The notes beneath the pieces were generated by a model. That model saw only the letters and a program-made list of their open reading frames with translations, searched no databases and was not told the DNA's origin. 21,225 nucleotides of DNA, from positions 1 through 21,225 of IMG/VR virus record IMGVR_UViG_3300025030_000453. One strand, written 5' to 3'. Each line of letters begins with the position of its first letter. Position 1 is the stretch's first letter. Positions 2,033 through 20,984 of the stretch are shown in pieces. Position numbers and translations under genes: made by a program. This stretch comes from a virus.

Positions 2033-2677
2033 TTAAAACACCTTCAAAGCTTTGAGCGTGGCGACATTGCCGATGCTGCTACCGATATTTCCCCACATCT
2101 GAGCTTGGGCCTGACCGGATGCTAGGGCCGCGCCTGCTGCCGCCTGACCTTGTTGCGTCAGAGCGTTGCCGATGTTTGCGCCAGTCTGCTGAGCTGCTGC
2201 GGCTTGGCCTGCGGCCGATGCCTGGCCGAGACCAGACACCTGACCGAGTTTGCTGAACTGAGACTCGATCAGCTGGCTCAAGAGCTGTGGGCGGAACTGG
2301 GCCAGTGTCGCCTGGACGTTGCCGCCGCGCAGCCCGCCCGTTGCTGAAGCGTTCTGCAAGATGGCGTTCTCGCCCTGCTGCATCATTGAGGTGAACTGCG
2401 GAGATTTTTCAAGCGCCTTGATGGCAGCTGCTTGGGCGTTCCCGCCAGAAAGTCCGAGTAGATCTTGTTGGCCACCAACTGCTGATTCACCGGCGTTGAC
2501 GTAAGGCGCAAGAAGTTTCTGCACCGCGTCAAACTGGCGCCGCTGTTCTGCAATAGATGCCGCACTGGCTTCGGTTTGGGCTCCTGCAGCAGACTCAGCG
2601 GCATCCGACTGGGCATTGCTTGACATGACTCCAGTGATAACAGACCCGGCCACGACAGCCGTTGCAATTCCACTCAT
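2033..2677 (-). CDS. DNA transfer/ejection protein, P22 gp7-like
   Basis: This is a 214-aa, Ala/Gly/Gln/Ser-rich protein with a hydrophobic N-terminus (residues 3-20, VVAGSVITGVMSS). Its central helix has EQRRQFDAVQKLLAPYVNAG, and then GGLRGGNVQATLAQFRPQLL. The GLRGGN...LAQFRP...LLSQLI signature is characteristic of the gp7-like DNA transfer proteins of podoviruses and their prophages. P22 gp7 is 229 aa, a comparable length. Family members sit inside the virion and are ejected into the host envelope with the genome. A strong AAGGAG ribosome site precedes the ATG, which overlaps the upstream SET gene stop (ATGA). The order gp7-like, gp20-like, gp16-like matches P22. Confidence 0.82.
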   Translation of the reverse strand: MSGIATAVVAGSVITGVMSSNAQSDAAESAAGAQTEASAASIAEQRRQFDAVQKLLAPYVNAGESAVGGQQDLLGLSGGNAQAAAIKALEKSPQFTSMMQQGENAILQNASATGGLRGGNVQATLAQFRPQLLSQLIESQFSKLGQVSGLGQASAAGQAAAAQQTGANIGNALTQQGQAAAGAALASGQAQAQMWGNIGSSIGNVATLKALKVF

Positions 2678-3540
2678 TTGGTTTCTCCTTCGATTAAATT
2701 GATGCCTGAAAGGGCAAGAGCTTGGCGGTAGTCAACTGTGACTTCCTCACCTTGACTTCCACCAGTGCAACCGGCGATGCGTTGAGTTGCCACAAGCCAA
2801 ATAGTGTCGTCATCATCTTTGACAAACTTGGCATTAGGGGTCTTCGAGTGGTTGGTGTACCTGCCAGCAGGTGTGCGGTGACCTAAGACTCGAGCTGGGG
2901 CAAGTACCTCCCCAACTTCTGCTGGCGAACTGAGGAAGACTCCCAGACCTTCGATGGTGGATGGCCTGACAGTTAACTTGGTGCCAAACCCCTCTGGCAT
3001 GTCAATCTGATCATGTGGGTTTTCAGATTGTGCACGAACAACCTCTGGCGTGAAACCGGCAAGACGAACAACTAGTTCAAAGTCTTCGCGATCTTCGCGG
3101 CGTTGATAGGTCTCAAGTTGCTTGGCGGCTTCAGCATGGGCTTGCCAAGTGGCACTCTTGTCGAGAAACATTGATTCGAGTTTGTCGATGTCACGCTCCT
3201 CGGTGGCGTAGACATTCTGCCAGATGCAGGTCTCAAGCACATAACCAAGTTTTCGACCAGGCTTACCCACAAAGATCATGGGGGCTCGTAGCACCTTGGT
3301 TTGACCATCGTCACCAACCATTGCAACGGCGCCAGTAAGCATGATATTCAGGTGGTCAAATCTCTGCGCGTGGCCAATGGCAAGAGTGCCGGCAGGCAGA
3401 GTAACTTCGCGGATGTAGATACCCGGTCCGAAGTGGTGGACAACTGGGCACTCGACTTGAGGCAGGTCCAAGAGGTGTGATTCAACCTGCTCGATTTTAG
3501 CAGGATCCACAATACTGTGAGATTGAGGCGTAGCCAGCAT
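2674..3540 (-). CDS. Cupin-SET domain fusion, putative protein lysine methyltransferase
   Basis: This 288-aa protein has two domains. Residues about 35-110 look like a cupin barrel: PAGTLAIGHAQRFDHLNIML is followed by the turn-and-strand pattern of a small-molecule-binding beta-barrel. Residues about 188-275 carry the SET hallmarks: GLGVF (198-202), the substrate/SAM motif RYTNHSKTPNA with NHS at 230-232, and GEEVTVDYR (264-272), whose Tyr is the usual catalytic residue. The Cys-rich post-SET motif is absent, as in minimal bacterial and viral SET proteins. SET enzymes transfer methyl from SAM to protein lysines; the target here is unknown. It lies between fibre-like genes and ejection-protein genes, behind its own promoter-like sequence and a strong AAGGAG site 7 nt before ATG. 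Domain identity is fairly sure; enzymatic activity is inferred. Confidence 0.85.
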   Translation of the reverse strand: MLATPQSHSIVDPAKIEQVESHLLDLPQVECPVVHHFGPGIYIREVTLPAGTLAIGHAQRFDHLNIMLTGAVAMVGDDGQTKVLRAPMIFVGKPGRKLGYVLETCIWQNVYATEERDIDKLESMFLDKSATWQAHAEAAKQLETYQRREDREDFELVVRLAGFTPEVVRAQSENPHDQIDMPEGFGTKLTVRPSTIEGLGVFLSSPAEVGEVLAPARVLGHRTPAGRYTNHSKTPNAKFVKDDDDTIWLVATQRIAGCTGGSQGEEVTVDYRQALALSGINLIEGETK

Positions 3541-3626: not shown

Positions 3627-3657
3627 ATACTAACACGCATCCGACCACCTTGTAAAC
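3627..3657 (-). promoter_or_regulatory. Sigma70-like internal late promoter ahead of the cupin-SET gene
   Basis: The only gap over 100 bp inside the late operon (3541-3659) contains, on the minus strand, GTTTAC (3657-3652) and TAGTAT (3632-3627). This corresponds to a TTTACA -35 box and a -10 box separated by 18 nt. The GTTTAC core is the same as in the four plus-strand promoters of this window, with one extra spacer base. A start near 3620 would give an 80-nt leader before the SET gene. The leader contains a small CTGTGG...CCACAG inverted repeat. This is inferred from sequence only. Confidence 0.5.
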
Positions 3658-9799: not shown

Positions 9800-9823
9800 G
9801 ATTGGCTCCTATTTCAATGTGGT

Positions 9824-10785: not shown

Positions 10786-12864
10786 TTACAGTGGAATGCC
10801 GTTCTGTGATACAGTTTCGGCCCCCTGTGGTTGGACTTGGCCCAAACCACCGAACTTTTCAATGACCTCCATGGCCTGGCGCTGTTCTGACGAGTCTACT
10901 TCAGCCAAAGTCTTCATGGTCTTGGCCTTAGTTTCATCAGCCTGCGCCACCGTGAGGATGGTCTTGGCACGAGCCTGAGTGGCGTTGGCCGTCGCTTCAT
11001 CGGCTGCTGCCTGCAGGTACTGAGTATTCGGATCAGGCTGTTGGTTGGCCTGTTCTTCAGCCATGGTCTGCTGTTCTTCCTCTGTGGGCTTGACAACTCC
11101 CATGCGGAGCAGCTTCTTGCGGAAGTAGTCACGCACCTCAGTGATGCCTTCGCCTTCCATGTTCATCATGGCCATGGCGCCCAGGACCTGCTTGGTCTCA
11201 GCATCGTCGGTCAAAGAGGCCATGCCGGTCAGGGCACGGACCGTAGCAGCACGCTTGCTTGAAGACGACGGGCCAACGTCCACATTGACGTCGAACTCGG
11301 CTTCAGACAGGTCGTTCTCAGTCTCAATCTCGCCTTTGTCATTGACTACAGGCTTGGCCAACTCGACAGATTGCATCTCGTTCTGTGGACCGATGGACTT
11401 CATCTTACGGCCTTCTTCGACTAGTACGTCCTTGGCCATGCTCAACCAGATTTCGCCCGAGCGCTTGACGGCCTTAGCCATGTTGCTCATGTAGATGAAG
11501 GTCTGCATGTCAAGTTTGTTCTGGATCAGCTCAACCGCCTTGCCGCTGACATTGGGTTGAAGTTCCTCGCCGGCCTGCTGGTTGCCAAGCAGGTCTTGCA
11601 TGTCCTGTTCAGTGATCTGCAGCAAAGCAGCCAAGGCCTGGGGGATCTGAGGCGGCTTGGTGTAGCCGATCGGGCCTGAGATGGCTTGGTTGCCGTTGGC
11701 GTCGGTGATGGGGTTCACCAGTAGGTAGGGGAAGTTCTTGATGTTGTCGTCAGCCCACATCATCTGATGGCCAGCGACCTGCTCAGGAGTCAGGATCGGC
11801 TTCTCAACCGAGGACAGGGCACTGATTTCGCCGAGCTTCGACAGCTGCATGTTCTTCAGGCGCTGAGCATCCTTGGCCAAGCGGACATGACCCATGCAGC
11901 GTTCCACGTTGTCGACGAACCAGCGCTTGCCGTACATGGGCACGATGGGGATGCACTTGCCGGCGATGTAGCCACAGTCCTCGAGGACCTTGCCACCGGA
12001 CAGGATGTACTTGCGGACACGGCGACGCTTGATGTTCTTCTGGCGGACTTCCTTGCTGCCCACTGCAAGCAGGCGCTCTTCCAAGGTCTCATCCGCCTCG
12101 AAGTCGGCGTCCTTGTAGCGTTCTTCCTCGCCGTCAATGGTCTCCCAGACGTAAACGGTCTCGCGAGTTTCCTCGACGCGGTAGTACTCAGCCACGAAGA
12201 CGACGTCAGGCGTCAGCCAGTCGAACTCGTACTGGTGGACTTCCTTCGGCCACGAAGCAGGGTCATCGCCCCACTCGTCCTTGTAGGCTTGGCGCGTCAT
12301 GGACGTGATGACGAAGCAGCGCTTGGCATCGGCCTTGTCTTGGCGCTTGGCGTTCAGGTCGAAGAACACAGACGAGTCGGCATCGAAGATCGGCTCAATG
12401 CGGATCCGCTGCTTCTCGTCTTCCTCGTCCTCTTCATTCTCGTACACAGTGCGCAGACGCCAGGCTCCAAAGCCGCCAGCCACACCTTCCTCAAAGGCGT
12501 TGTCATAGGCTTCCTCAGCACCGCTGTCCTGCTCGTCGGCACGGTACAGACCGTCGCAGGTATCAGCCAACTTGTCGTACTCCTTGCCTTCCTTGCTCAC
12601 GAAGTCGACGGTGATGCGGTTGTTGCGGTACTCGTTGATGATGCGGATGACGGCCAAGTGGATCTTGTTGACCTCGAACTTGGGCTTGTTCTCGAACTGC
12701 TCACCCAATGGACCTTCCCACTGGGCACCTGCGATCGAGTAGAAGCGGCGGTCTTGGAGGCACTGCAGTCGCTCATCGCGCATGGCAGATTGGATGTTGT
12801 CAAACTCAGCGAGCGCCTCCTGGTGGATGGCAGCAAGTCGTTGCTCTTTGGTTGGTCGGGCCAT
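10786..12864 (-). CDS. Portal protein, P22 gp1-like
   Basis: The 692-aa length compares with 725 in P22. The start (MARPTKEQRLAAIHQEALAEF, RDERLQCLQDRRFYSIAG) and the wing/stem motifs such as FEVNKIHLAVIRIINEYRNN and EQDSGAEEAYDNAFEEGVAGGFG match the P22 portal class. A helical C-terminal barrel follows, rich in A, E, Q, K (about residues 600-670), the P22 'barrel' equivalent. It forms the dodecameric ring at one capsid vertex through which DNA is pumped and ejected. The TAAGGA site overlaps the TerL stop and is 8 nt before ATG. The gene is directly downstream of the terminase genes. A high-confidence call. Confidence 0.94.
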   Translation of the reverse strand: MARPTKEQRLAAIHQEALAEFDNIQSAMRDERLQCLQDRRFYSIAGAQWEGPLGEQFENKPKFEVNKIHLAVIRIINEYRNNRITVDFVSKEGKEYDKLADTCDGLYRADEQDSGAEEAYDNAFEEGVAGGFGAWRLRTVYENEEDEEDEKQRIRIEPIFDADSSVFFDLNAKRQDKADAKRCFVITSMTRQAYKDEWGDDPASWPKEVHQYEFDWLTPDVVFVAEYYRVEETRETVYVWETIDGEEERYKDADFEADETLEERLLAVGSKEVRQKNIKRRRVRKYILSGGKVLEDCGYIAGKCIPIVPMYGKRWFVDNVERCMGHVRLAKDAQRLKNMQLSKLGEISALSSVEKPILTPEQVAGHQMMWADDNIKNFPYLLVNPITDANGNQAISGPIGYTKPPQIPQALAALLQITEQDMQDLLGNQQAGEELQPNVSGKAVELIQNKLDMQTFIYMSNMAKAVKRSGEIWLSMAKDVLVEEGRKMKSIGPQNEMQSVELAKPVVNDKGEIETENDLSEAEFDVNVDVGPSSSSKRAATVRALTGMASLTDDAETKQVLGAMAMMNMEGEGITEVRDYFRKKLLRMGVVKPTEEEQQTMAEEQANQQPDPNTQYLQAAADEATANATQARAKTILTVAQADETKAKTMKTLAEVDSSEQRQAMEVIEKFGGLGQVQPQGAETVSQNGIPL

Positions 12865-14592: not shown

Positions 14593-14622
14593 TGTTTACC
14601 ACAATGGAGGTGGATCGTAAAC
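14593..14622 (-). promoter_or_regulatory. Second leftward GTTTAC box (weak promoter or operator)
   Basis: On the minus strand GTTTAC (14622-14617) is followed after exactly 18 nt by TAAACA (14598-14593). The -10-like hexamer is poor. On the plus strand the same place reads GTTTAC (14594-14599) facing GTAAAC (14617-14622), an inverted pair. It may be a regulator site rather than a promoter. Confidence 0.35.
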
Positions 14623-14643
14623 CGTTTCACTGGAGGTGTAAAC
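14614..14643 (-). promoter_or_regulatory. Leftward late promoter for the terminase/structural operon
   Basis: On the minus strand GTTTAC (14643-14638; -35 TTTACA) is followed after 18 nt by TACGAT (14619-14614; -10 with 4 of 6 consensus bases). This is the same architecture as the plus-strand promoter family. Its start would be near 14607, leaving about 43 nt of leader before terS. Its -10 overlaps the next GTTTAC box. Confidence 0.55.
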
Positions 14644-14703
14644 CGCTCTAACACATGTGGGAAACCTCGTACACCCTCTAAATGGGCGAACACTCACTCT
14701 GAT

Positions 14704-14732
14704 GGAGCGGCCTGTGTAGCGAGTTGTGTAGC
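14704..14732 (+). repeat. Left copy of spaced direct repeat
   Basis: Blocks in order: GGAGCGG (14704-14710), 5-nt gap, GTAGCGAGT (14716-14724), 2-nt gap, TGTAGC (14727-14732). The same three blocks in the same order occur at 14862-14896. The two copies flank the AT-rich core. Confidence 0.75.
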
Positions 14733-14759
14733 AACCTAAGTTGTTGATCTGTAAGGAGT

Positions 14760-14868
14760 TTTTCAGTATCTACAGAAAATATAGTCCTCTTCCCTTTCTT
14801 TCTTAAAAAAGGAAGGAAGTAAAATAATAATAAGATTAAAAAGTAAGGGAATATTTATAAAGGAGCGG
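14760..14868. other. AT-rich core with hairpin, candidate origin/unwinding region
   Basis: A strongly A+T-rich stretch, purine-rich on the plus strand, within otherwise GC-rich sequence. It contains a near-perfect 11-bp hairpin: CTTTCTTTCTT (14794-14804), AAAA loop, AAGGAAGGAAG (14809-14819); it pairs fully if two G-U wobbles are allowed in plus-strand RNA. AT-rich DNA beside repeated sites and replication genes suggests an unwinding element; it could instead be a promoter/UP-element or an RNA leader feature. Confidence 0.45.
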
Positions 14869-14896
14869 AGGGCCCAGTAGCGAGTAGTTCTGTAGC
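14862..14896 (+). repeat. Right copy of spaced direct repeat
   Basis: GGAGCGG (14862-14868), 8-nt gap, GTAGCGAGT (14877-14885), 5-nt gap, TGTAGC (14891-14896). It abuts the -35 box of the rightward promoter, so a protein bound here could touch RNA polymerase. Confidence 0.75.
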
Positions 14897-14897
14897 G

Positions 14898-14927
14898 GTT
14901 TACAACGGCCATAATCTAAGTTAAGAT
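14898..14927 (+). promoter_or_regulatory. Rightward early promoter P1 (GTTTAC-N18-TAAGAT)
   Basis: -35 region GTTTAC at 14898-14903 and -10 TAAGAT at 14922-14927, with the 18-nt spacing shared by three other plus-strand sites. Its start is predicted near 14934, just before the first early gene. Confidence 0.65.
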
Positions 14928-14942
14928 TGCAGCAACTTAACT
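14919..14942 (+). promoter_or_regulatory. Operator candidate: 7-bp inverted repeat over P1 -10 and start
   Basis: AGTTAAG (14919-14925) and its exact reverse complement CTTAACT (14936-14942) are separated by 10 nt, and TTG/CAA pairs continue inward. It covers the -10 box and the expected transcription start, so a bound dimer would block P1. The next gene, with an HTH-like C-terminus, is a natural candidate ligand. Confidence 0.45.
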
Positions 14943-14952
14943 GGAGATAAGT

Positions 14953-15300
14953 ATGACTGCTAAACGCGATAAATACCAGCACGCCCTCTACGAACTTGTT
15001 TTGGAATTACCACTCGCTACGCGACGGAGATGCGAACCACACATCAGGCTGCTGCAAGACATCTTGAACGACGACACAGACTTGTTCTCCGATCGCCGTG
15101 GTAAACATTGGGCAGAACGCCGAGTGGAACCACAATTGTCCGTAGAGATTCGTGGTCAAGGCTCACAAAATATGAGTTATGAGGAAGCATCACAATTGAT
15201 TCGAAGGTCTCCAAAGCAGTTGCAAATGGCCATGTCAATTGGGCGAGGTGTAGCCCACTTCAGAGTAGATGATGACAGCATCTCAGTTCGTAAACTGTAA
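14953..15300 (+). CDS. Small early protein with HTH-like C-terminus, possible regulator
   Basis: A 115-aa product, the first gene of the rightward operon, with GGAG 6 nt before ATG. It is unlike any family I can name. The N-terminal half is helical and basic (ALYELVLELPLATRRRCEPH, then LLQDILND). The C-terminal ~40 residues, SYEEASQLIRRSPKQLQMAMS followed by GVAHFRVDDDSISV, resemble a short DNA-binding helix-turn-helix of the type that reads sYeeAaklL...sp..l...i..G, ending in a strand. Position beside an operator-like inverted repeat suggests an autoregulator or early switch protein. Function is inference; the coding call is secure from start, length and lack of competing ORFs. Confidence 0.75.
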   Translation: MTAKRDKYQHALYELVLELPLATRRRCEPHIRLLQDILNDDTDLFSDRRGKHWAERRVEPQLSVEIRGQGSQNMSYEEASQLIRRSPKQLQMAMSIGRGVAHFRVDDDSISVRKL

Positions 15301-15310
15301 ATAACCAACC

Positions 15311-15340
15311 GTTTACGTCAGCCGACAATCGAACTAGAAT
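15311..15340 (+). promoter_or_regulatory. Promoter P2 (GTTTAC-N18-TAGAAT)
   Basis: -35 GTTTAC (15311-15316) and -10 TAGAAT (15335-15340) with exactly 18 nt between them, followed by CTA. It lies just after the first early gene and would start near 15347, giving a long leader before the primase-helicase. Confidence 0.7.
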
Positions 15341-15418
15341 CTATCTCGGCCGCCCCGGTTGTGACGTCTCCTTCGGTTGTCATCAGCCTTGGTCCCGTCG
15401 ATCCCCTCAGCAAGGTTC

Positions 15419-15568
15419 ATGGTCGGGGTGGCCACCTTTTTCATGCGGCTGAGCGCATGGTTGGCCGATGCTGAGGCGGCTATGATCGACGAATTGAGGA
15501 CCGAAACAAGATGGCAACGACAAAAAAGAAGACTGCTCCTGCAGCCGACCACAAAGCTCTTTCCTTAG
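15419..15568 (+). CDS. Possible 49-aa small ORF in primase leader, overlapping the primase start
   Basis: This frame runs from ATG 15419 to a stop at 15568 and overlaps the first 58 nt of the primase-helicase gene in another frame. The peptide begins MVGVATFFMRLSAWLADAEA and ends in a basic segment (WQRQKRRLL), so it would be amphipathic to membrane-seeking. An AAGG sits only 3 nt before ATG; a shorter start at 15482 has a better spaced GAGG and gives 28 aa. The long leader after P2 leaves room for it, but nothing else supports translation. It may be a leader peptide or simply chance. Confidence 0.28.
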   Translation: MVGVATFFMRLSAWLADAEAAMIDELRTETRWQRQKRRLLLQPTTKLFP

Positions 15569-17613
15569 GGGAAACCAAACTCAAGTCAAGTGGGCTCACG
15601 CTCGAAGATGCCAAGCTGCTTAGTATGCACTGCTTGGGCCAGCAGCAGACTGCGGCTCAGCACCAAGCATTCAAGCAGCTTTGTAGTTTGCGCATCGATT
15701 ACATTGGGCCTGACGGTCAGCCGATCGGCGACTGGCCAGGATCCAAACCGTTCTACCGCATCAGGTACCTTGAGACGCCATCGGACTTCTCCAGCCTGAC
15801 CGACAAGAAGCCTGTGCGCTACGTGCAGGAACCCAACACGGCACCGGTCGCCTACTACCCGGCCAATCAGGACTGGGAAGGTTTGCTTCACGACACCGAC
15901 CAGCCACTGATCCTGACTGAAGGCGAGCTCAAAGCCGCCAAGGCCTGCAAGGAGGGCTTCCCCACCATCGGGCTGGGTGGCGTGTACAACTGGCGCAGCC
16001 ACAAGCTGGGACTCGATTGGCTTCCCAGCCTCGACCTCGTCAAGTGGGCCAAGCGCAACGTCTACATCTGCTTTGACAGCGACTACAAGACCAACCCCAT
16101 GGTGTGCGCGGCCCTTCGTGAGCTTGGTGAGGAGCTGCATCGCCGCGGCTGCTTCGTGCATCTGGTCTCGCTGCCTCAGCTGCCTGGTCTTGAGAAGGTG
16201 GGGCTTGACGACTTCCTCGTACATGCCGGGCCATCAGCCGTCTCGATGTTTCGTGGTCTCCTCACAGAAGCCGAGCCGTTGGGCCTGACCGCTCCGCTTT
16301 GGGGACTCAATGAGAAGTACGTCTACGTCCAAGACCCTGGTCTCATCGTCGACCAAGACACTCGGTTCAAGGCCAGTCCATCTGCCTTCAAGGAGCACCT
16401 GCAGGCTCCCCTGAACTACCACGAGCGCAGCCTCAAGCAAGACGGCACCGTCTCCTTCAAAGCGGTCTCAGCTGCTGCAGCCTGGCTCAAGTGGCCGTTG
16501 CGGACTGAGGTCACGAAGATTACGTACAAGCCAGGCGATGGCCGCTTCATCGCTGAGCCGCGCCCCATGTTCAACATCTGGCCGGGCTGGGGTGTCGAGC
16601 CGGTTGAGGACGACGTCACGCCGTTCTTGGAACTGGTCTCTCACATCTTCAAGGGGTCAGAGCCTGAAGCCATGAACTGGTTTCTCAACTGGTGTGCCTA
16701 CCCGCTGCAGCATCCGGGCACGAAGCTGTTCAGCTCAGCGGTCCTGCACGGTATCCGTCACGGCACCGGTAAGTCACTGATCGGCTACACGCTGGGCAGG
16801 ATCTACGGACAGAACTTCACTGAGATCAGTCAGATGGACTTGCACAACAGCTTCAACGAGTGGGCTGAGGGCAAGCAGTTCGTCATGGGTGACGACGTGA
16901 CTGGGTCCAACAAGCGGGCTGATGCCGACTTCTTGAAGAAGCTCATCACGCAGCGTGAGCTCCGAGTCAACGGCAAGTACGTGCCGACCTACGTCGTGCC
17001 TGACTGCATTAACTACTTTTTCACGGCCAACCATCCTGACTCGTTCTTCCTTGAGGACGACGACCGCCGCTTCTTCATCCATGAGGTGCAGGTCGGTCCC
17101 ATGGAGGAAGAGTTCTACATGAACTATGACCTGTGGCTGGACACTGGCGGGAGCAAGGCCGTCTTCCACTACCTGCTTCAGCGCGACACCGGCGACTTCA
17201 ACCCGGCTGCTCCCGCCTTCAAGACTGCTGCCAAGGAGCGCATGATCGCCAACGTGCAGAGTGACTTGGCCGGTTGGGTGCGTCAGCTCTTGGCCACGCC
17301 GAACCACGTCCTCAAGGTTGGCGAGATTGTGGTTGACAAGGACTTGTTCACGTCGAAGGAGCTGCTGCAGTTCTACGATCCGTCAGGCAAGACTGGCACA
17401 ACAGCCAACGGACTAGGTCGCGAGCTGGCCAGGGCCGGAGTCCGTCAGATTTGTGGTGGCAAGCCGATCCGCTTGGCCGACGGTGGGCAAGGTCGCTTGT
17501 ACGCGTTGCGGAACATCGAGTTTTGGATGACCGAAGCCGCTCCGCAAGCTGCTGTGAAGCACTTGGAAGACTGGTCGAAGAAACAAACTGGCGCAAAAGC
17601 CGCAAAATATTGA
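15511..17613 (+). CDS. Primase-helicase: TOPRIM-like (DUF3854 type) plus SF3 (DUF5906/NrS-1 type) domains
   Basis: A 700-aa replication protein. The N-terminal part has a TOPRIM-like core: LILTEGELKAAKAC (residues 133-146, catalytic Glu137) and VYICFDSDYKTNP with DSD at 189-191, followed by GLDDFL, matching the DUF3854 class. The C-terminal part is an SF3-type helicase: Walker A GIRHGTGKS (414-422), Walker B FVMGDDV (457-463), FTANHP sensor (504-509) and DDDRRFF arginine finger (516-522), resembling the NrS-1-type DUF5906 helicase. It probably primes and unwinds at the phage origin. No zinc-finger is seen. The ribosome site (GAGG, 11 nt from ATG) is long-spaced, and in-frame upstream a stop (TGA) blocks any longer start. 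Confidence 0.9.
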   Translation: MATTKKKTAPAADHKALSLGETKLKSSGLTLEDAKLLSMHCLGQQQTAAQHQAFKQLCSLRIDYIGPDGQPIGDWPGSKPFYRIRYLETPSDFSSLTDKKPVRYVQEPNTAPVAYYPANQDWEGLLHDTDQPLILTEGELKAAKACKEGFPTIGLGGVYNWRSHKLGLDWLPSLDLVKWAKRNVYICFDSDYKTNPMVCAALRELGEELHRRGCFVHLVSLPQLPGLEKVGLDDFLVHAGPSAVSMFRGLLTEAEPLGLTAPLWGLNEKYVYVQDPGLIVDQDTRFKASPSAFKEHLQAPLNYHERSLKQDGTVSFKAVSAAAAWLKWPLRTEVTKITYKPGDGRFIAEPRPMFNIWPGWGVEPVEDDVTPFLELVSHIFKGSEPEAMNWFLNWCAYPLQHPGTKLFSSAVLHGIRHGTGKSLIGYTLGRIYGQNFTEISQMDLHNSFNEWAEGKQFVMGDDVTGSNKRADADFLKKLITQRELRVNGKYVPTYVVPDCINYFFTANHPDSFFLEDDDRRFFIHEVQVGPMEEEFYMNYDLWLDTGGSKAVFHYLLQRDTGDFNPAAPAFKTAAKERMIANVQSDLAGWVRQLLATPNHVLKVGEIVVDKDLFTSKELLQFYDPSGKTGTTANGLGRELARAGVRQICGGKPIRLADGGQGRLYALRNIEFWMTEAAPQAAVKHLEDWSKKQTGAKAAKY

Positions 17614-17621
17614 AACCACAT

Positions 17622-17651
17622 GTTTACAGCCATGGCGGCGTAGATTAGAAT
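17622..17651 (+). promoter_or_regulatory. Promoter P3 (GTTTAC-N18-TAGAAT)
   Basis: GTTTAC at 17622-17627 and TAGAAT at 17646-17651 with 18 nt between. It begins 8 nt after the primase-helicase stop. It shares a TTGAAA upstream block with P4. The start would be near 17658, about 50 nt before the 68-aa gene. Confidence 0.72.
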
Positions 17652-17707
17652 CGCAACTGCTGAGGGAATTCTCCCAACGCGTTATCAACCACTTGAAGGA
17701 GTGAATC

Positions 17708-17914
17708 ATGAATGCAAAAGAGATCAAGGCCGCACTGGCCGACGAAGGTGTGCAAGCTGCTATCGAGAAGCAAGTCGCTGCCGCTGTGAAGGCCGAGACC
17801 AAGCGCGTCCTGGCTGTGGTCAAGGAAGCCGAGCTGCCCGAAGACAAGGTCGCTGCCAAGGCAACCAAGGCCGTGCTGAAGTCCATCGTGGACGGCATCA
17901 AGGAAGCTGCGTAA
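17708..17914 (+). CDS. 68-aa helical Lys/Ala/Glu-rich protein, unknown
   Basis: A short gene with a strong AAGGAG 7 nt before ATG. The protein is almost wholly helical and made largely of A, K, E and V, with a nearly balanced charge (about 12 basic and 11 acidic residues). It has no hydrophobic membrane stretch, cysteines or aromatic residues. The first 30 residues and the last 20 are both amphipathic helices around a short ELPEDK turn, suggesting a helical hairpin or dimeric coiled coil. It has its own promoter (P3) and a strong terminator directly behind, so it is expressed as a unit, perhaps at high level. I do not recognise the family. Possible roles include host-protein binding or nucleoid binding; this is only a guess. 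Confidence 0.82.
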   Translation: MNAKEIKAALADEGVQAAIEKQVAAAVKAETKRVLAVVKEAELPEDKVAAKATKAVLKSIVDGIKEAA

Positions 17915-17933
17915 GCCAGCTGTCCAATCGGAT

Positions 17934-17960
17934 AGGAGACTTCGGTCTCCTTTCTTTTTC
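17934..17960 (+). terminator. Rho-independent terminator behind the 68-aa gene
   Basis: Perfect 7-bp stem AGGAGAC (17934-17940) / GTCTCCT (17945-17951) with a TTCG loop and then TTCTTTTTC. It has the same stem length and tetraloop as the terminator behind the coat gene on the other strand. Confidence 0.88.
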
Positions 17961-17986
17961 ATCTGAATGTAAGTAAGGAGTTTCAC

Positions 17987-18202
17987 ATGCGTTGCTACCT
18001 CGTCACTGGCCCTGGTGCCAAGCGTTACGCCGCCACGAATGCCGATGCTCGCGCCACCCGCGACGCGTTGGTTGAGCAGCTCGACTGCAAGAAGAAGGAC
18101 GTCGAGATTGAGCAGACCGACATCCCAGTCGCCAAGGCTGAGTTACTCGAGTTCATCAACACCTTGTGCGCCGAGACCGACGCAAAGGACGCAGAAGAAT
18201 GA
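17987..18202 (+). CDS. 71-aa protein, unknown
   Basis: Starts with ATG at 17987 after AAGGAG spaced 7 nt. The predicted fold is one beta strand (MRCYLVTGPGAKRYAATN), a helix (ADARATRDALVEQL), a charged strand (KKKDVEIEQTDIPV) and a second helix (AKAELLEFINTLCAE), ending in a D/E-rich tail. This compact beta-alpha-beta-alpha arrangement is common among small phage proteins, but I do not recognise a family. Its stop overlaps the ThyX start (ATGA), so the two are probably co-translated. Its only obvious promoter is upstream P3, through the terminator, so read-through or a weak unseen promoter must supply it. Confidence 0.75.
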   Translation: MRCYLVTGPGAKRYAATNADARATRDALVEQLDCKKKDVEIEQTDIPVAKAELLEFINTLCAETDAKDAEE

Positions 18203-18867
18203 GCCAAGTCCGTCTGATCGCGTTCACCCAGCCGATTGAGTTGGAAGGTGTTCAGACGGGCGAGGAGCTGGTGGCCTACTGTGCACGGGTCTCGAACCCT
18301 GCCAATCAGGCCAACCATGAAACGGCTCCTCGTCTGCTCAATTACCTCGTGCGCAACCACCACTGGTCTCCCTTCGAGATGGCGCATGCAGTCATCGAGA
18401 TCCAGACGACCCGCGACATCGCCCGTCAGATTCTCCGCCATCGGTCCTTCAGCTTCCAAGAGTTCAGCCAGCGTTACGCCGCCGTGGTCGAAGATGCAGT
18501 GATCCGTGAGGCTCGCATGCAAGACACCACGAATCGCCAGAACAGCTTGGCCATCGAGGACGACGACATGCGCAAATGGTGGGAGTACCAACAGAACGAA
18601 GTGGCCAAGAAGACCAGTGAGGTCTACGCGGCCGCTCTGCGCATGGGCATCGCCAAGGAGGTTGCTCGCTCGGTCCTGCCTGAGGGCCTGACTCCAAGTC
18701 GTCTTTACATATCCGGCTCAGTTCGCAGCTGGATTCACTACATCCAACTCCGTGCCGGCAACGGTACCCAGAAGGAGCACCGCGAGATTGCCGTCATGTG
18801 CAAACTGGCTCTGCTCCATGTCATGCCCTCAATCAAGGAGATTCTCGATGCAACGCAAGATCACTAA
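18199..18867 (+). CDS. thyX: Flavin-dependent thymidylate synthase ThyX
   Basis: A 222-aa protein starting MSQVRLIAFTQP at 18199, the ATGA overlap with the previous stop; an upstream extension to 18166 adds only basic out-of-family residues. The diagnostic ThyX motif RHRxxSxxxxSxR is present exactly as RHRSFSFQEFSQR (residues 80-92). It also has the family's NHHWSPFEMA (53-62) and the C-terminal LTPSRLYISGSVRSWIHYIQLR helix-strand. ThyX uses FAD and methylenetetrahydrofolate to methylate dUMP to dTMP, feeding phage DNA synthesis. It lies in a nucleotide-metabolism/replication cluster. Its end overlaps the DUF3310 gene by 20 nt. Confidence 0.97.
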   Translation: MSQVRLIAFTQPIELEGVQTGEELVAYCARVSNPANQANHETAPRLLNYLVRNHHWSPFEMAHAVIEIQTTRDIARQILRHRSFSFQEFSQRYAAVVEDAVIREARMQDTTNRQNSLAIEDDDMRKWWEYQQNEVAKKTSEVYAAALRMGIAKEVARSVLPEGLTPSRLYISGSVRSWIHYIQLRAGNGTQKEHREIAVMCKLALLHVMPSIKEILDATQDH

Positions 18868-19105
18868 GCCGGCTCCTGCCAAGGACATGGTAAACCACCC
18901 ATCTCACTACACCGAGACCGACAACGGGGTCGAGTGCATCGATGCCATCCGTGCCGCCCTGGGCAAAGAGCAGTTCATTGGCTTCCTGCGCGGCCAAGTC
19001 ATCAAGTACCAGTGGCGCCTGGGCAAGAAGGACAGTTCGGTGCAGGACAACAAGAAGGCCATCTGGTACGCTACCAAGCTCGATGAGGTGCTCAATGAAG
19101 CGTAG
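18848..19105 (+). CDS. DUF3310 family protein (small phage nucleotide-kinase-like)
   Basis: An 85-aa protein with ATG at 18848, preceded by AAGGAG 7 nt upstream and overlapping thyX. It shows the DUF3310 pattern: VNHPSHY, ECIDAIRAALG, FIGFLRGQVIKYQWRLGKKD, and NKKAIWYATKLDEVL. This domain is known from many phages; related proteins are often labelled nucleotide kinase by similarity to T7 gp1.7, though the small version's biochemistry is unproven. Its neighbourhood with ThyX agrees with a role in nucleotide supply. Its 3' end overlaps the next small membrane-protein gene by 11 nt. Confidence 0.9.
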   Translation: MQRKITKPAPAKDMVNHPSHYTETDNGVECIDAIRAALGKEQFIGFLRGQVIKYQWRLGKKDSSVQDNKKAIWYATKLDEVLNEA

Positions 19106-19256
19106 TCGTTACCTCTACACCTGGGTCGACTGGGTCAAGGAGATTCTGGGCTGGGGCTTTGGTCTGATCGCTGGGTTCATCCTGCTGCCAGTCCTGGGCT
19201 TCATCCTGAAGCTCCTCTGGGTCTTCTTCATGGTCGGTTGGGACTTGATCAAATGA
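19095..19256 (+). CDS. 53-aa small membrane protein
   Basis: Starts MKRSRYLYTWVDWVKEILGW with ATG at 19095, in a frame different from the DUF3310 gene it overlaps. Residues about 17-50 hold a long hydrophobic stretch (WGFGLIAGFILLPVLGFILK, then LLWVFFMVGW), long enough for one kinked or two short transmembrane helices, after a basic N-terminus. No signal peptidase site is obvious. Possible roles are a membrane-acting host modulator, superinfection-exclusion factor or lysis-related protein, but I see no family signature. Its stop overlaps the start of the J-domain gene (ATGA). Confidence 0.75.
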   Translation: MKRSRYLYTWVDWVKEILGWGFGLIAGFILLPVLGFILKLLWVFFMVGWDLIK

Positions 19257-19531
19257 GCAAAGCTTTCGCGACTCTGGGCCTTCCTGATACCGTGACGCCT
19301 GACGAGGTCAAGGCGAAGTGGCGGGAACTCTGCATGATTCATCACCCAGACCGCGGAGGCAACTCCGTGGAGTTCAACACGATCCGCAAGGCCTACAAGC
19401 AGGCGTTTGCTGAAGCCAGCGAGCCCAAGCCATGTGTTCCATGCAATGGCAGCGGCAAGGTCAAGGTCAACAGCGGTTGGTCATCGATCGATATGCCATG
19501 CCAAGCATGTGGAGGTTCTGGTCATGGCTAA
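19253..19531 (+). CDS. Mini J-domain protein with C4 zinc knuckle
   Basis: A 92-aa protein with ATG at 19253, overlapping the previous stop. Residues 1-57 form a J domain: helix II with TPDEVKAKWRELCMIHHPDRGG and the invariant HPD at 31-33, then NTIRKAYKQAFAE. The C-terminal part has CVPCNGSGK (Cys61, Cys64) and CQACGGSG (Cys83, Cys86), i.e. two CxxCxGxG-like halves that can bind one zinc, as in DnaJ's zinc-finger. No substrate-binding domain is present. J proteins stimulate Hsp70 ATPase, so it may divert host DnaK, for example to assembly or replication complexes. The domain call is firm; the partner is inferred. Confidence 0.9.
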   Translation: MSKAFATLGLPDTVTPDEVKAKWRELCMIHHPDRGGNSVEFNTIRKAYKQAFAEASEPKPCVPCNGSGKVKVNSGWSSIDMPCQACGGSGHG

Positions 19532-19982
19532 GAAGCCCAAGACCGTGCAAGTCGGCAGCCATGAGTACTTCAACGCCTTGTTGACCTACTACACAAACCG
19601 CTCGACTGCTGTCATGCGTGGTCGTGGCAACCTAAGCCGCGAGGACCTTGAGTATGTCGCCCAAGCAGCTGAGAAGCTGAAAGACAAGCGACTGCAGGAA
19701 TGCATTGCTGAGCTGATCGGCTGGGGCGACGATGAACGGTCTGAACTTGAGACGCTGTTGGCGCTCGGCTTCGAGGCCATGAAACTTTGCAGCCCAAGTC
19801 GCTTGCGTGAAGCAGCGATGCGGGTCAGTTTGAAATACTACGTGAAGAAGGAATTTAGCCATGCCCAAGAATCAATCGACCAGTCAGCTGGTGGCGTATC
19901 TGGTACCGAAGCAGCTGCCAGTCATTCTGGCCCGAGTGATGGGGTTCCGAGCACCGCCGTGTCTGGCAGTGTTCAAGGATAA
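19524..19982 (+). CDS. 152-aa protein, unknown
   Basis: Starts MAKKPKTVQVGSHEYFNALL with GGAGG upstream, and the ATG lies inside the end of the J-domain gene. Residues 1-110 are helical with charged segments (LSREDLEYVAQAAEKLKDKR, ERSELETLLALGFEAM) and end YYVKKEF. After about residue 112 the composition changes to a Ser/Gly/Ala tail, which coincides with the region where a second ORF (19861-20022) is read in another frame. I do not recognise its family. The globular part is convincing as coding sequence; the tail could reflect constraints from the overlap. Confidence 0.7.
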   Translation: MAKKPKTVQVGSHEYFNALLTYYTNRSTAVMRGRGNLSREDLEYVAQAAEKLKDKRLQECIAELIGWGDDERSELETLLALGFEAMKLCSPSRLREAAMRVSLKYYVKKEFSHAQESIDQSAGGVSGTEAAASHSGPSDGVPSTAVSGSVQG

Positions 19983-20022
19983 AGTCACCACGCAAGTTGA
20001 CATCGTTGAGGTGCCACTATGA
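19861..20022 (+). CDS. 53-aa protein overlapping the 3' end of the preceding gene
   Basis: An ORF too short for most automated finders. ATG 19861 is preceded by AAGGA about 8 nt upstream. It encodes MPKNQSTSQLVAYLVPKQLP, then a hydrophobic-basic stretch (VILARVMGF), and ends DKVTTQVDIVEVPL. The stop overlaps the ligase start in ATGA form, the usual coupling in this operon, which supports it as real. It shares 122 nt with the preceding gene in a different frame. No family recognised. Confidence 0.6.
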   Translation: MPKNQSTSQLVAYLVPKQLPVILARVMGFRAPPCLAVFKDKVTTQVDIVEVPL

Positions 20023-20894
20023 AACCCATGCTCGCCTCGCCTGCTGGACCGGTCATCCCGTTCCCAATGCTGCTCAGCCCCAAGCTGGACGGCATTCGTT
20101 GCTTGATCATTGATGGCGTGGCCGTTGGCCGCAGCCTGAAGCCGATTCCCAACAAGTACGTGCAGCTGCTGTTCGGCCACCACGAGTTCAATGGCCTCGA
20201 TGGGGAGCTGATCGTCGATTCGCCCATTGCCAAGGAAGTGTTCCAAGTGACCTCATCCGGCGTCATGAGCATCGAGGGCCAGCCCAAGGTGAAGTTCTAC
20301 GTGTTCGACGACTTCAGTCACGAAGCTGGATTTGCCAAGCGCTTGGACATGGCCTTCAAGCGGACCCGGCGTCATACCCATTTCGTGCAGGTGCCGCATG
20401 ACAAGGTGAACCGTGAAGCCGCCATCCTGACCTGGGAAGAAAGCTACCTGGCTGCCGGCTACGAAGGCGTGATGCTGCGCCATCCTGATGGTCCATACAA
20501 GCATGGTCGCTCGACTGCCAAGGAGGCGTGGCTACTGAAGGTGAAGTGCTTTGTTGACGCCGAAGCCAAGGTCATTGGCTACTCAGAAGCCCAGCACAAC
20601 GCCAATGAGGCCAAGCGCAACGAGCTGGGCCAACTTGAACGATCAAGTCACAAGGCTGGTAAGGTCGGCAAGCAGACGCTGGGTGCTCTCATGGTCAAGG
20701 ACCTGAAGACTGGCGTGGAGTTCGACATCGGCACTGGGTTCACTGAGTCTCAGCGACAGTTGCTTTGGGCACAAGGTGATGGTCTGCTTGGCAAGGTTGT
20801 GAAGTACAAGAGCCAGCCAACTGGTGTGAAGGACAAGCCGCGCTTCCCAGTGTTCCTTGGCTTCCGCGACAAGGTGGACATGGACGCAAAATAA
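20019..20894 (+). CDS. ATP-dependent DNA ligase
   Basis: A 291-aa enzyme of the small T7-like ligase type. The adenylation motif is SPKLDGIR, with Lys22 as the AMP-linked lysine. DGEL at 61-64, FYVFDDF (93-99), the strand EGVMLRH (149-155) and WLLKVK (Lys174, Lys176) correspond to ligase motifs Ia/III, IV and V. The C-terminal ~100 residues (from about 180) are an OB-fold domain. It seals nicks in replicating phage DNA. Its start overlaps the preceding small gene's stop. A promoter (P4) follows its stop. Ligase identity is sure; metal or cofactor details are not visible beyond family knowledge. Confidence 0.95.
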   Translation: MKPMLASPAGPVIPFPMLLSPKLDGIRCLIIDGVAVGRSLKPIPNKYVQLLFGHHEFNGLDGELIVDSPIAKEVFQVTSSGVMSIEGQPKVKFYVFDDFSHEAGFAKRLDMAFKRTRRHTHFVQVPHDKVNREAAILTWEESYLAAGYEGVMLRHPDGPYKHGRSTAKEAWLLKVKCFVDAEAKVIGYSEAQHNANEAKRNELGQLERSSHKAGKVGKQTLGALMVKDLKTGVEFDIGTGFTESQRQLLWAQGDGLLGKVVKYKSQPTGVKDKPRFPVFLGFRDKVDMDAK

Positions 20895-20908
20895 ATTTGA
20901 AATTACCT

Positions 20909-20938
20909 GTTTACACCGCAGAGATTTCACTCTAGAAT
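20909..20938 (+). promoter_or_regulatory. Promoter P4 (GTTTAC-N18-TAGAAT)
   Basis: GTTTAC at 20909-20914 and TAGAAT at 20933-20938 with exactly 18 nt between, followed by CTAATC. It lies 14 nt after the ligase stop and has the same upstream TTGAAA block as P3. It would drive the pentapeptide gene, with about 40 nt of leader. Confidence 0.72.
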
Positions 20939-20984
20939 CTAATCACGGTCAACAACGATCGCAACCAAACTTGCTGAGGTTACC

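Follow-up and report, generated by a model that had tools for sequence, protein, structure and literature searches.

Predicted promoters built like T4 early promoters accompany a replication module in P22-type podoviruses and in siphoviruses

IMG/VR virus record IMGVR_UViG_3300025030_000453 (21,225 nucleotides, analyzed over its whole length and hereafter called the window) repeats one hexamer pair, GTTTAC-N17..19-TANNAT, between genes on both strands, which raises the question of what these sites are and which polymerase would read them. The minus strand carries P22-type virion genes (portal, scaffold, coat, closure and ejection proteins), and the plus strand carries replication genes, with a D5-type primase first. 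The sites are probably T4-early-type promoters read by the sigma70 polymerase of the host, forming a standard cassette of this phage lineage. This reading is carried by the sites themselves, their placement, their conservation and their T4-like make-up. The conserved places are designated P1 to P6, of which P5 lies outside the window; the remaining site is named by its first base, 14898.

Intergenic sites and their conservation

The pattern matches the window six times and does not occur in 100 dinucleotide shuffles. An earlier sequence-only reading of this DNA had located the same six pairs, with 18 nt between the hexamers in five and one extra base (19 nt) in the minus-strand pair 3657-3627, and all six were recovered at those positions (Table 1). 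Relative to the -35 hexamer, TANNAT follows TTTACN-N17 in five sites and TTTACN-N18 in one. All six are wholly intergenic with respect to homology-supported genes, compared to an intergenic fraction of 5.3% for the window (by a hand-curated gene list with gene starts set partly by hand). They lie directly ahead of genes, as had been claimed for the four plus-strand sites, with 26–171 nt from the end of the -10 hexamer to the next same-strand gene. GTTTAC occurs 14 times in the window against 3.4 expected, and none of the eight unpaired copies has a TANNAT 16–20 nt downstream. The earlier statement that such copies lack a partner is therefore correct, but the copy given at 9817 is actually at 9822 and those at 12151, 14594, 14617 and 15101 had been omitted.

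The closest relatives of the window are 24 contigs with primase identities of 83–99%, six of which span 37–39 kb. Five of the six places, all except 14898, are also occupied in relatives: P1 before the small-terminase gene, P2 before the primase gene or an inserted gene, P3 behind the primase gene, P4 behind the ligase gene, and P6, with its 19-nt spacer, before the tail-fibre-like gene; P5 precedes a conserved gene. (In the P1/P2 alignment, coordinates of '-' rows refer to the reversed record, and row G019 5576 shows another site.) Scans of whole records found the pattern in all 24 relatives, G014 having a single off-type match, and twice in G025, whose primase is 78% identical. Ranking loci L195–L283 by the identity of their primases shows the pattern to be usual from 70% upward and sparser below. 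None of the records of seven P22-type phages with portals 70–76% identical, and with no detectable relative of the window primase, contains it. It is the replication module, not the virion type, that the promoter family tracks. The pair is thus not equally frequent inside genes, since the sites are intergenic and are absent from relatives with another replication module. Intergenic placement and conservation also bear out the earlier view of a single sigma70-like family that serves both strands under strong selection. The upstream element, the leader hairpin and the coupling to the replication module described below go beyond that view.

That the sites are chance matches, or the unselected inheritance of AT-rich intergenic spots, is extremely unlikely. 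TANNAT by itself is already enriched between genes (12/35 in 5.3% of window DNA), as this explanation would have it, but the shuffles contain no pairs and a reversed-pattern control gave no match across all 32 records. Moreover, sites in relatives keep their hexamers while the spacers diverge, and G014 retains GTTTACA with a -10 hexamer, CATAAT, one base further on. Conservation therefore largely refutes chance. Spacers of 18 nt account for 107 cases across 105 sequences, 19 nt for 13 and every other length for at most five, in a count over overlapping loci that were not deduplicated. Site 14898 is the least certain of the six: it is a putative promoter identified by its pattern, found at this place in 0/24 records of the primase relatives and without the conserved upstream element.

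A mechanical split by open reading frame (ORF), which labeled 40/95 family sites as coding, was dropped because the ORF picker fills leaders with spurious ORFs, and genes backed by homology or by annotation were used instead. A blind 5-mer pair search performed no better than shuffles, a single genome holding too few exact pairs.

The family extends beyond podoviruses. The siphoviruses AXL3, PW916 and MW202621 have primase, ligase, helicase, polymerase and other genes in common with the podovirus group, and contain one, two and eight GTTTAC-form matches (-10 variants allowed) and four, five and eight TTTAC-form matches, respectively. All four AXL3 sites, which lie on the minus strand with TTTAC at 29982, 30660, 40808 and 47509, are intergenic by the deposited annotation. 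In MW202621, five of the eight precede a same-strand annotated gene; two others have the upstream element and a GCTGAGG leader, and the last lies inside the terminase gene and looks like a chance match. AXL3, a Stenotrophomonas phage (Axeltriavirus), resembles the window group in its primase (57–58% identical), ligase, DnaJ-like protein, helicase, polymerase and a TTTAC promoter with a hairpin leader, but it has a siphovirus virion, and three of its four TTTAC sites lack the full GTTTAC. Twelve other named phages were scanned, most of which have a distant primase or share a single gene: four have one or two matches (scored on TTTAC, not on the whole cassette) and eight have none. Of the named phages of the P22 type, three in all, one contains three TTTAC matches and two contain none. 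Comparison of window positions 15511–20894 with L145, L146 and L149 indicates a replication module common to P22-type podoviruses and Axeltriavirus/Mesyanzhinovviridae-like siphoviruses, and the whole module appears to be exchanged between virion types. Literature searches turned up no account of the promoter family beyond T4-like phages. In the accessible text of the AXL3 paper (PMC7504290) the word 'promoter' does not occur, and according to that of the AXL1 paper (PMC9206674) promoters were predicted by software.

Upstream element and the reading polymerase

According to the accessible text of PMC1524935, T4 early promoters have GTTTAC at -36 to -31, with T at -33, and A-rich DNA at -40 to -44, and the G at -36 is kept to varying degrees in T4-related phages; that of PMC2988021 states that host sigma70 polymerase by itself reads these promoters, which are called UP/-35/TGn/-10 promoters. 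As a positive control, the same pattern scan on T4 gave 37 sites, 35 of them on one strand; A has a frequency of 0.94 at -40 and 0.68 at -44 in the 31 distinct sites. The 105 non-redundant sites of the present family (G or A being required before TTTAC, and some chance matches surely being included) have the upstream consensus TGAAAnTAnnTG-TTTAC, with frequencies of 0.82 for A at -44, 0.76 for A at -43, 0.80 for A at -40, 0.75 for T at -37, 0.73 for G at -36, 0.55 for T at -47 and 0.50 for G at -46. The window sites are like T4 early promoters in having GTTTAC at -36 to -31 in 6/6 and a TANNAT -10 hexamer after 17–18 nt; A at -40 and -44 is a likeness of the family as a whole. They differ in that TGn is rare, a TGWAA left arm is present and some copies lack the A-rich element. 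Furthermore, promoters of this family serve virion genes too, and the virions are unrelated to T4. Because the extended -10 (TGn) is much rarer than in T4, we describe the window promoters as apparently built and working like a T4 early promoter, not as being one.

P3 and P4 have a strong A-rich element at -40 to -44, P2 and P6 a partial one, and P1 and 14898 none. Many copies carry TTGAAA-TA-TG ahead of GTTTAC. The A-rich/TGWAA element is found in P3, P4 and P5, and P1 has the palindrome CACAYGTG in its place, which stands 8 bp before GTTTAC in 19/20 distinct P1 places (chosen by eye). The two kinds of copies could separate early from late expression.

The association of TGWAA with the promoters is close. 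It is found exactly 7 bp before TTTAC in 30/67 paired sites of the podovirus group compared to 0/252 unpaired TTTAC, in 9/17 compared to 0/44 in the siphoviruses, and in 17/78 compared to 13/555 in 50 mostly distant loci; it precedes none of 393 TTTAC at this distance in the seven other P22-type phages. When 2.9 million viral contigs were searched with a query made of the upstream element and the -35 hexamer but no -10, 41 matches came up, 32 with a -10 at 16–19 nt; the query was derived from known family members and many of the 41 are known records. G014 has three TGWAA-TTTAC places without TANNAT, two of them with CATAAT.

These data bear on a second reading, which we consider unlikely, in which the element is an operator: an imperfect dyad TGWAAn-N6-TTTACA, whose right arm is the -35 hexamer, would be bound by a dimeric regulator, and this would explain why T is fixed at position three of the -35 hexamer. 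TGTAAA-N6-TTTACA dyads are regulator sites of the TyrR-box type, which the most symmetric family members resemble in arm sequence and spacing; here, however, the right arm doubles as the -35 hexamer and most left arms in the window clade read TGAAA. The confinement of TGWAA to paired sites in the podovirus group and the siphoviruses agrees with an operator, and the dyad is perfect or near-perfect in L232, L196, L263, L241 and G014 and perfect in some distant phages. TGTAAA is matched at 4/6 or more positions in 52/105 family sites and 45/677 background sites. On the other hand, -44 and -40 are A-rich in T4 also, where the TGWAA left arm is nearly absent (1/31); the arm is missing at P1 and 14898; and several of the 13 dyads without a -10 in the distant set are the same places read from the opposite strand. 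The candidate regulator would be the conserved product of the P5 gene, itself expressed from such a promoter, with a C-terminal three-helix domain that is HTH-like in a predicted model. Homologues occur in 3/3 siphoviruses and the promoter stands ahead of the gene in most of 32 loci, but the gene is simply a member of the same module, and the fold match is weak (best Z 5.5 among the structure lists compared; Foldseek gave no match under E 1).

An extended form of the operator reading is improbable: a portable regulon would comprise the dyad fused to the -35 hexamer, the bound P5-gene product and the hairpin leader, as a self-contained expression cassette that travelled, together with the replication module, between the podovirus and siphovirus virion types; the virion operon would have come under it by way of a distinct CACAYGTG switch.

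The apparent start of the P5 gene, MVLDRTNLAED, is likely translated leader, the real start being MTTKTY. Additionally, a second conserved promoter-like pair, GTTTGACG-N18-AATART, lies about 52 bases upstream of P5 in G002, G009, G016 and G017. The C-terminal domain of the P5-gene product is present in a second module protein as well: L163 2501–2926 with its homologues, and G017 29346–30023, have in common the domain GKTNQEVW...YPTWYR, with an HTH-like prediction.

A phage-encoded sigma factor or RNA polymerase might be suspected from one fixed hexamer on both strands and in all operons, but it is very unlikely given a -10 hexamer and spacing that are those of ordinary sigma70 promoters. Sigma region 2 (PF04542) was found in 0/9 family records, with 10/14 control genomes above the cut-off. 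The absence of a phage RNA polymerase gene noted in the earlier reading was reproduced for the T7 type (PF00940) in 0/7 family records, with the T7 control detected. That reading had also taken the unusually fixed -35 hexamer to suggest an additional factor. The fixed hexamer is real, but the T4 early promoter is a published counterpart that sigma70 polymerase reads alone, as far as the available text of PMC1524935 and PMC2988021 goes; our analysis did not show an additional factor, and GTTTAC at -36 to -31 was already known from T4 (PMC1524935, same text).

Several points weigh against sigma70-read, T4-early-type promoters as the explanation. TGn precedes the -10 hexamer in only 1/6 window sites and 11/78 family sites, compared to 22/31 in T4. 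No Alt-like ADP-ribosyltransferase (PF03496) was found in a sequence-only search of nine family records, which may be fragments, while the T4 Alt control scored E 4.4e-38. The TGWAA element is more exact than a plain A-rich UP element requires, and two window sites, P1 and 14898, lack A-rich DNA there. Counts are inflated by relatedness among loci. Promoter activity, start points, polymerase contacts and hairpin function are what we infer from these patterns, and the sigma70 identity of the polymerase is assumed; we name no host because the matches of a genome scan for it (ten contigs from metagenome-assembled or draft genomes) come from many phyla.

With host sigma70 polymerase as the reader, the design would be an A-rich element at -44 to -40, GTTTAC at -36 to -31, 17 bp and TANNAT, giving strong promoters for the housekeeping enzyme. 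Selection for a sequence that sigma region 4 and the alpha C-terminal domains can contact at the same time would most likely be the reason why GTTTAC is fixed. Rightward transcription of the replication genes would come from the cassette, and leftward transcription of the virion genes from copies whose upstream element differs. The T4 early promoter design is now placed in small phages unrelated to T4; therefore, the combination of GTTTAC and an A-rich element seems to be a recurrent solution to host polymerase takeover, not a peculiarity of T4. Promoter and leader accompany the replication genes from one virion type to another, so that mosaic phages would be able to retain their timing.

Leader hairpin

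Many sites are followed by a leader of the form CTAAYCACGGTCAA...GACCG...CTTGCTGAGGAG-ATG. With the last T of the -10 hexamer numbered -7, +1 falls on the A of CAC and +2 on the first base of the stem. Transcription would thus start at an A 7 nt after the -10 hexamer, and many of the RNAs would carry a short hairpin at their very start and a GCTGAGG ribosome-binding stretch after it. The best stem starts at one fixed offset, 7, in 28/42 leaders, and 7/42 have no 5-pair stem. Shuffles of single leaders were mostly weak evidence (p 0.00–0.47 where a stem exists). The covariation set consisted of nine chosen P5-type leaders of relatives with equal loop length, seven of them distinct, out of the 42 (the P5 leader of G014 was dropped as shifted); over nine pairs, 63/63 cells are paired and three pairs changed on both sides, compared to 17–38% paired in slid controls. 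RNAalifold recovered the same stem unprompted. Since the stem lies exactly where the RNA of the promoter would begin, it gives independent support for the predicted start. Exact start-site predictions become available for many uncultured phages.

5'-terminal stem-loops protect bacterial and phage mRNAs. The hairpin described here resembles them in that it covaries and sits where the RNA is inferred to begin, but differs in belonging to a repeated promoter-leader unit, and an effect on stability is a guess. Slower RNA decay would be the simplest such role. The P3 leader has the variants GGGAATTGTCCC and GGGAACCGTCCC in relatives (read by eye).

Features and neighboring genes of the window

The coordinates of the promoter sites, leaders and associated features are summarized in Table 1.

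Table 1. Features of the window, with the distance between the -10 hexamer (last base) and the next same-strand gene (first base)
Feature	Position	Strand	Composition and context	Distance (nt)	Basis
Promoter 14898 (putative)	14898..14927	+	GTTTAC-N18-TAAGAT, ahead of 115-aa ORF 14953-15300	26	Pattern match; window-specific
Promoter P2 (predicted)	15311..15340	+	GTTTAC-N18-TAGAAT, before primase gene	171	Pattern; same place in relatives
Promoter P3 (predicted)	17610..17651	+	TTGAAA 17610-17615 (overlaps primase stop codon) and GTTTAC 17622-N18-TAGAAT (pair 17622-17651)	57	Kept in relatives, spacer diverged
Promoter P4 (predicted)	20897..20938	+	TTGAAA 20897-20902 and GTTTAC 20909-N18-TAGAAT (pair 20909-20938)	47	Pattern
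Promoter P1 (predicted)	14614..14643	-	GTTTAC-N18-TACGAT, before small-terminase-like gene and virion operon	50	Pattern; relatives
Promoter P6 (predicted)	3627..3657	-	GTTTAC-N19-TAGTAT, before ORF 3540-2674 (tail-fibre-like)	87	Same 19-nt spacer in relatives
Palindrome	14652..14659	-	CACATGTG/CACACGTG, 8 bp upstream of P1 GTTTAC, replaces A-rich element		Conserved before virion-operon promoter
P3 leader	17659..17707	+	CTGCTGAGGGA and short hairpin GGGA-ATTC-TCCC before 68-aa gene		Read by eye
P4 leader	20945..20979	+	Inferred start A 20945; hairpin CGGTC 20946-20950 / GATCG 20957-20961; GCTGAGG ribosome-binding stretch 20973-20979; ATG 20985		
D5-type primase/helicase gene	15511..17613	+	Marker of the replication module accompanied by the promoter family		

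The gene that starts behind P4 (20985–21225) encodes many pentapeptide-type repeats and is truncated at the record end. The ORF at 2674–3540 on the minus strand has PHROGs short-tail-fibre matches and also a Pfam SET-domain match barely above the cut-off (24.9 compared to 22.4 bits); a Pfam 'RA' match also turned up in profile searches. Finally, the region between P1 and P2 (14660–14930) is an AT- and purine-rich stretch with flanking repeats TGTAGCG...CTAAGTnGTTGAT that is kept beside the primase gene in relatives, and is likely a replication origin.

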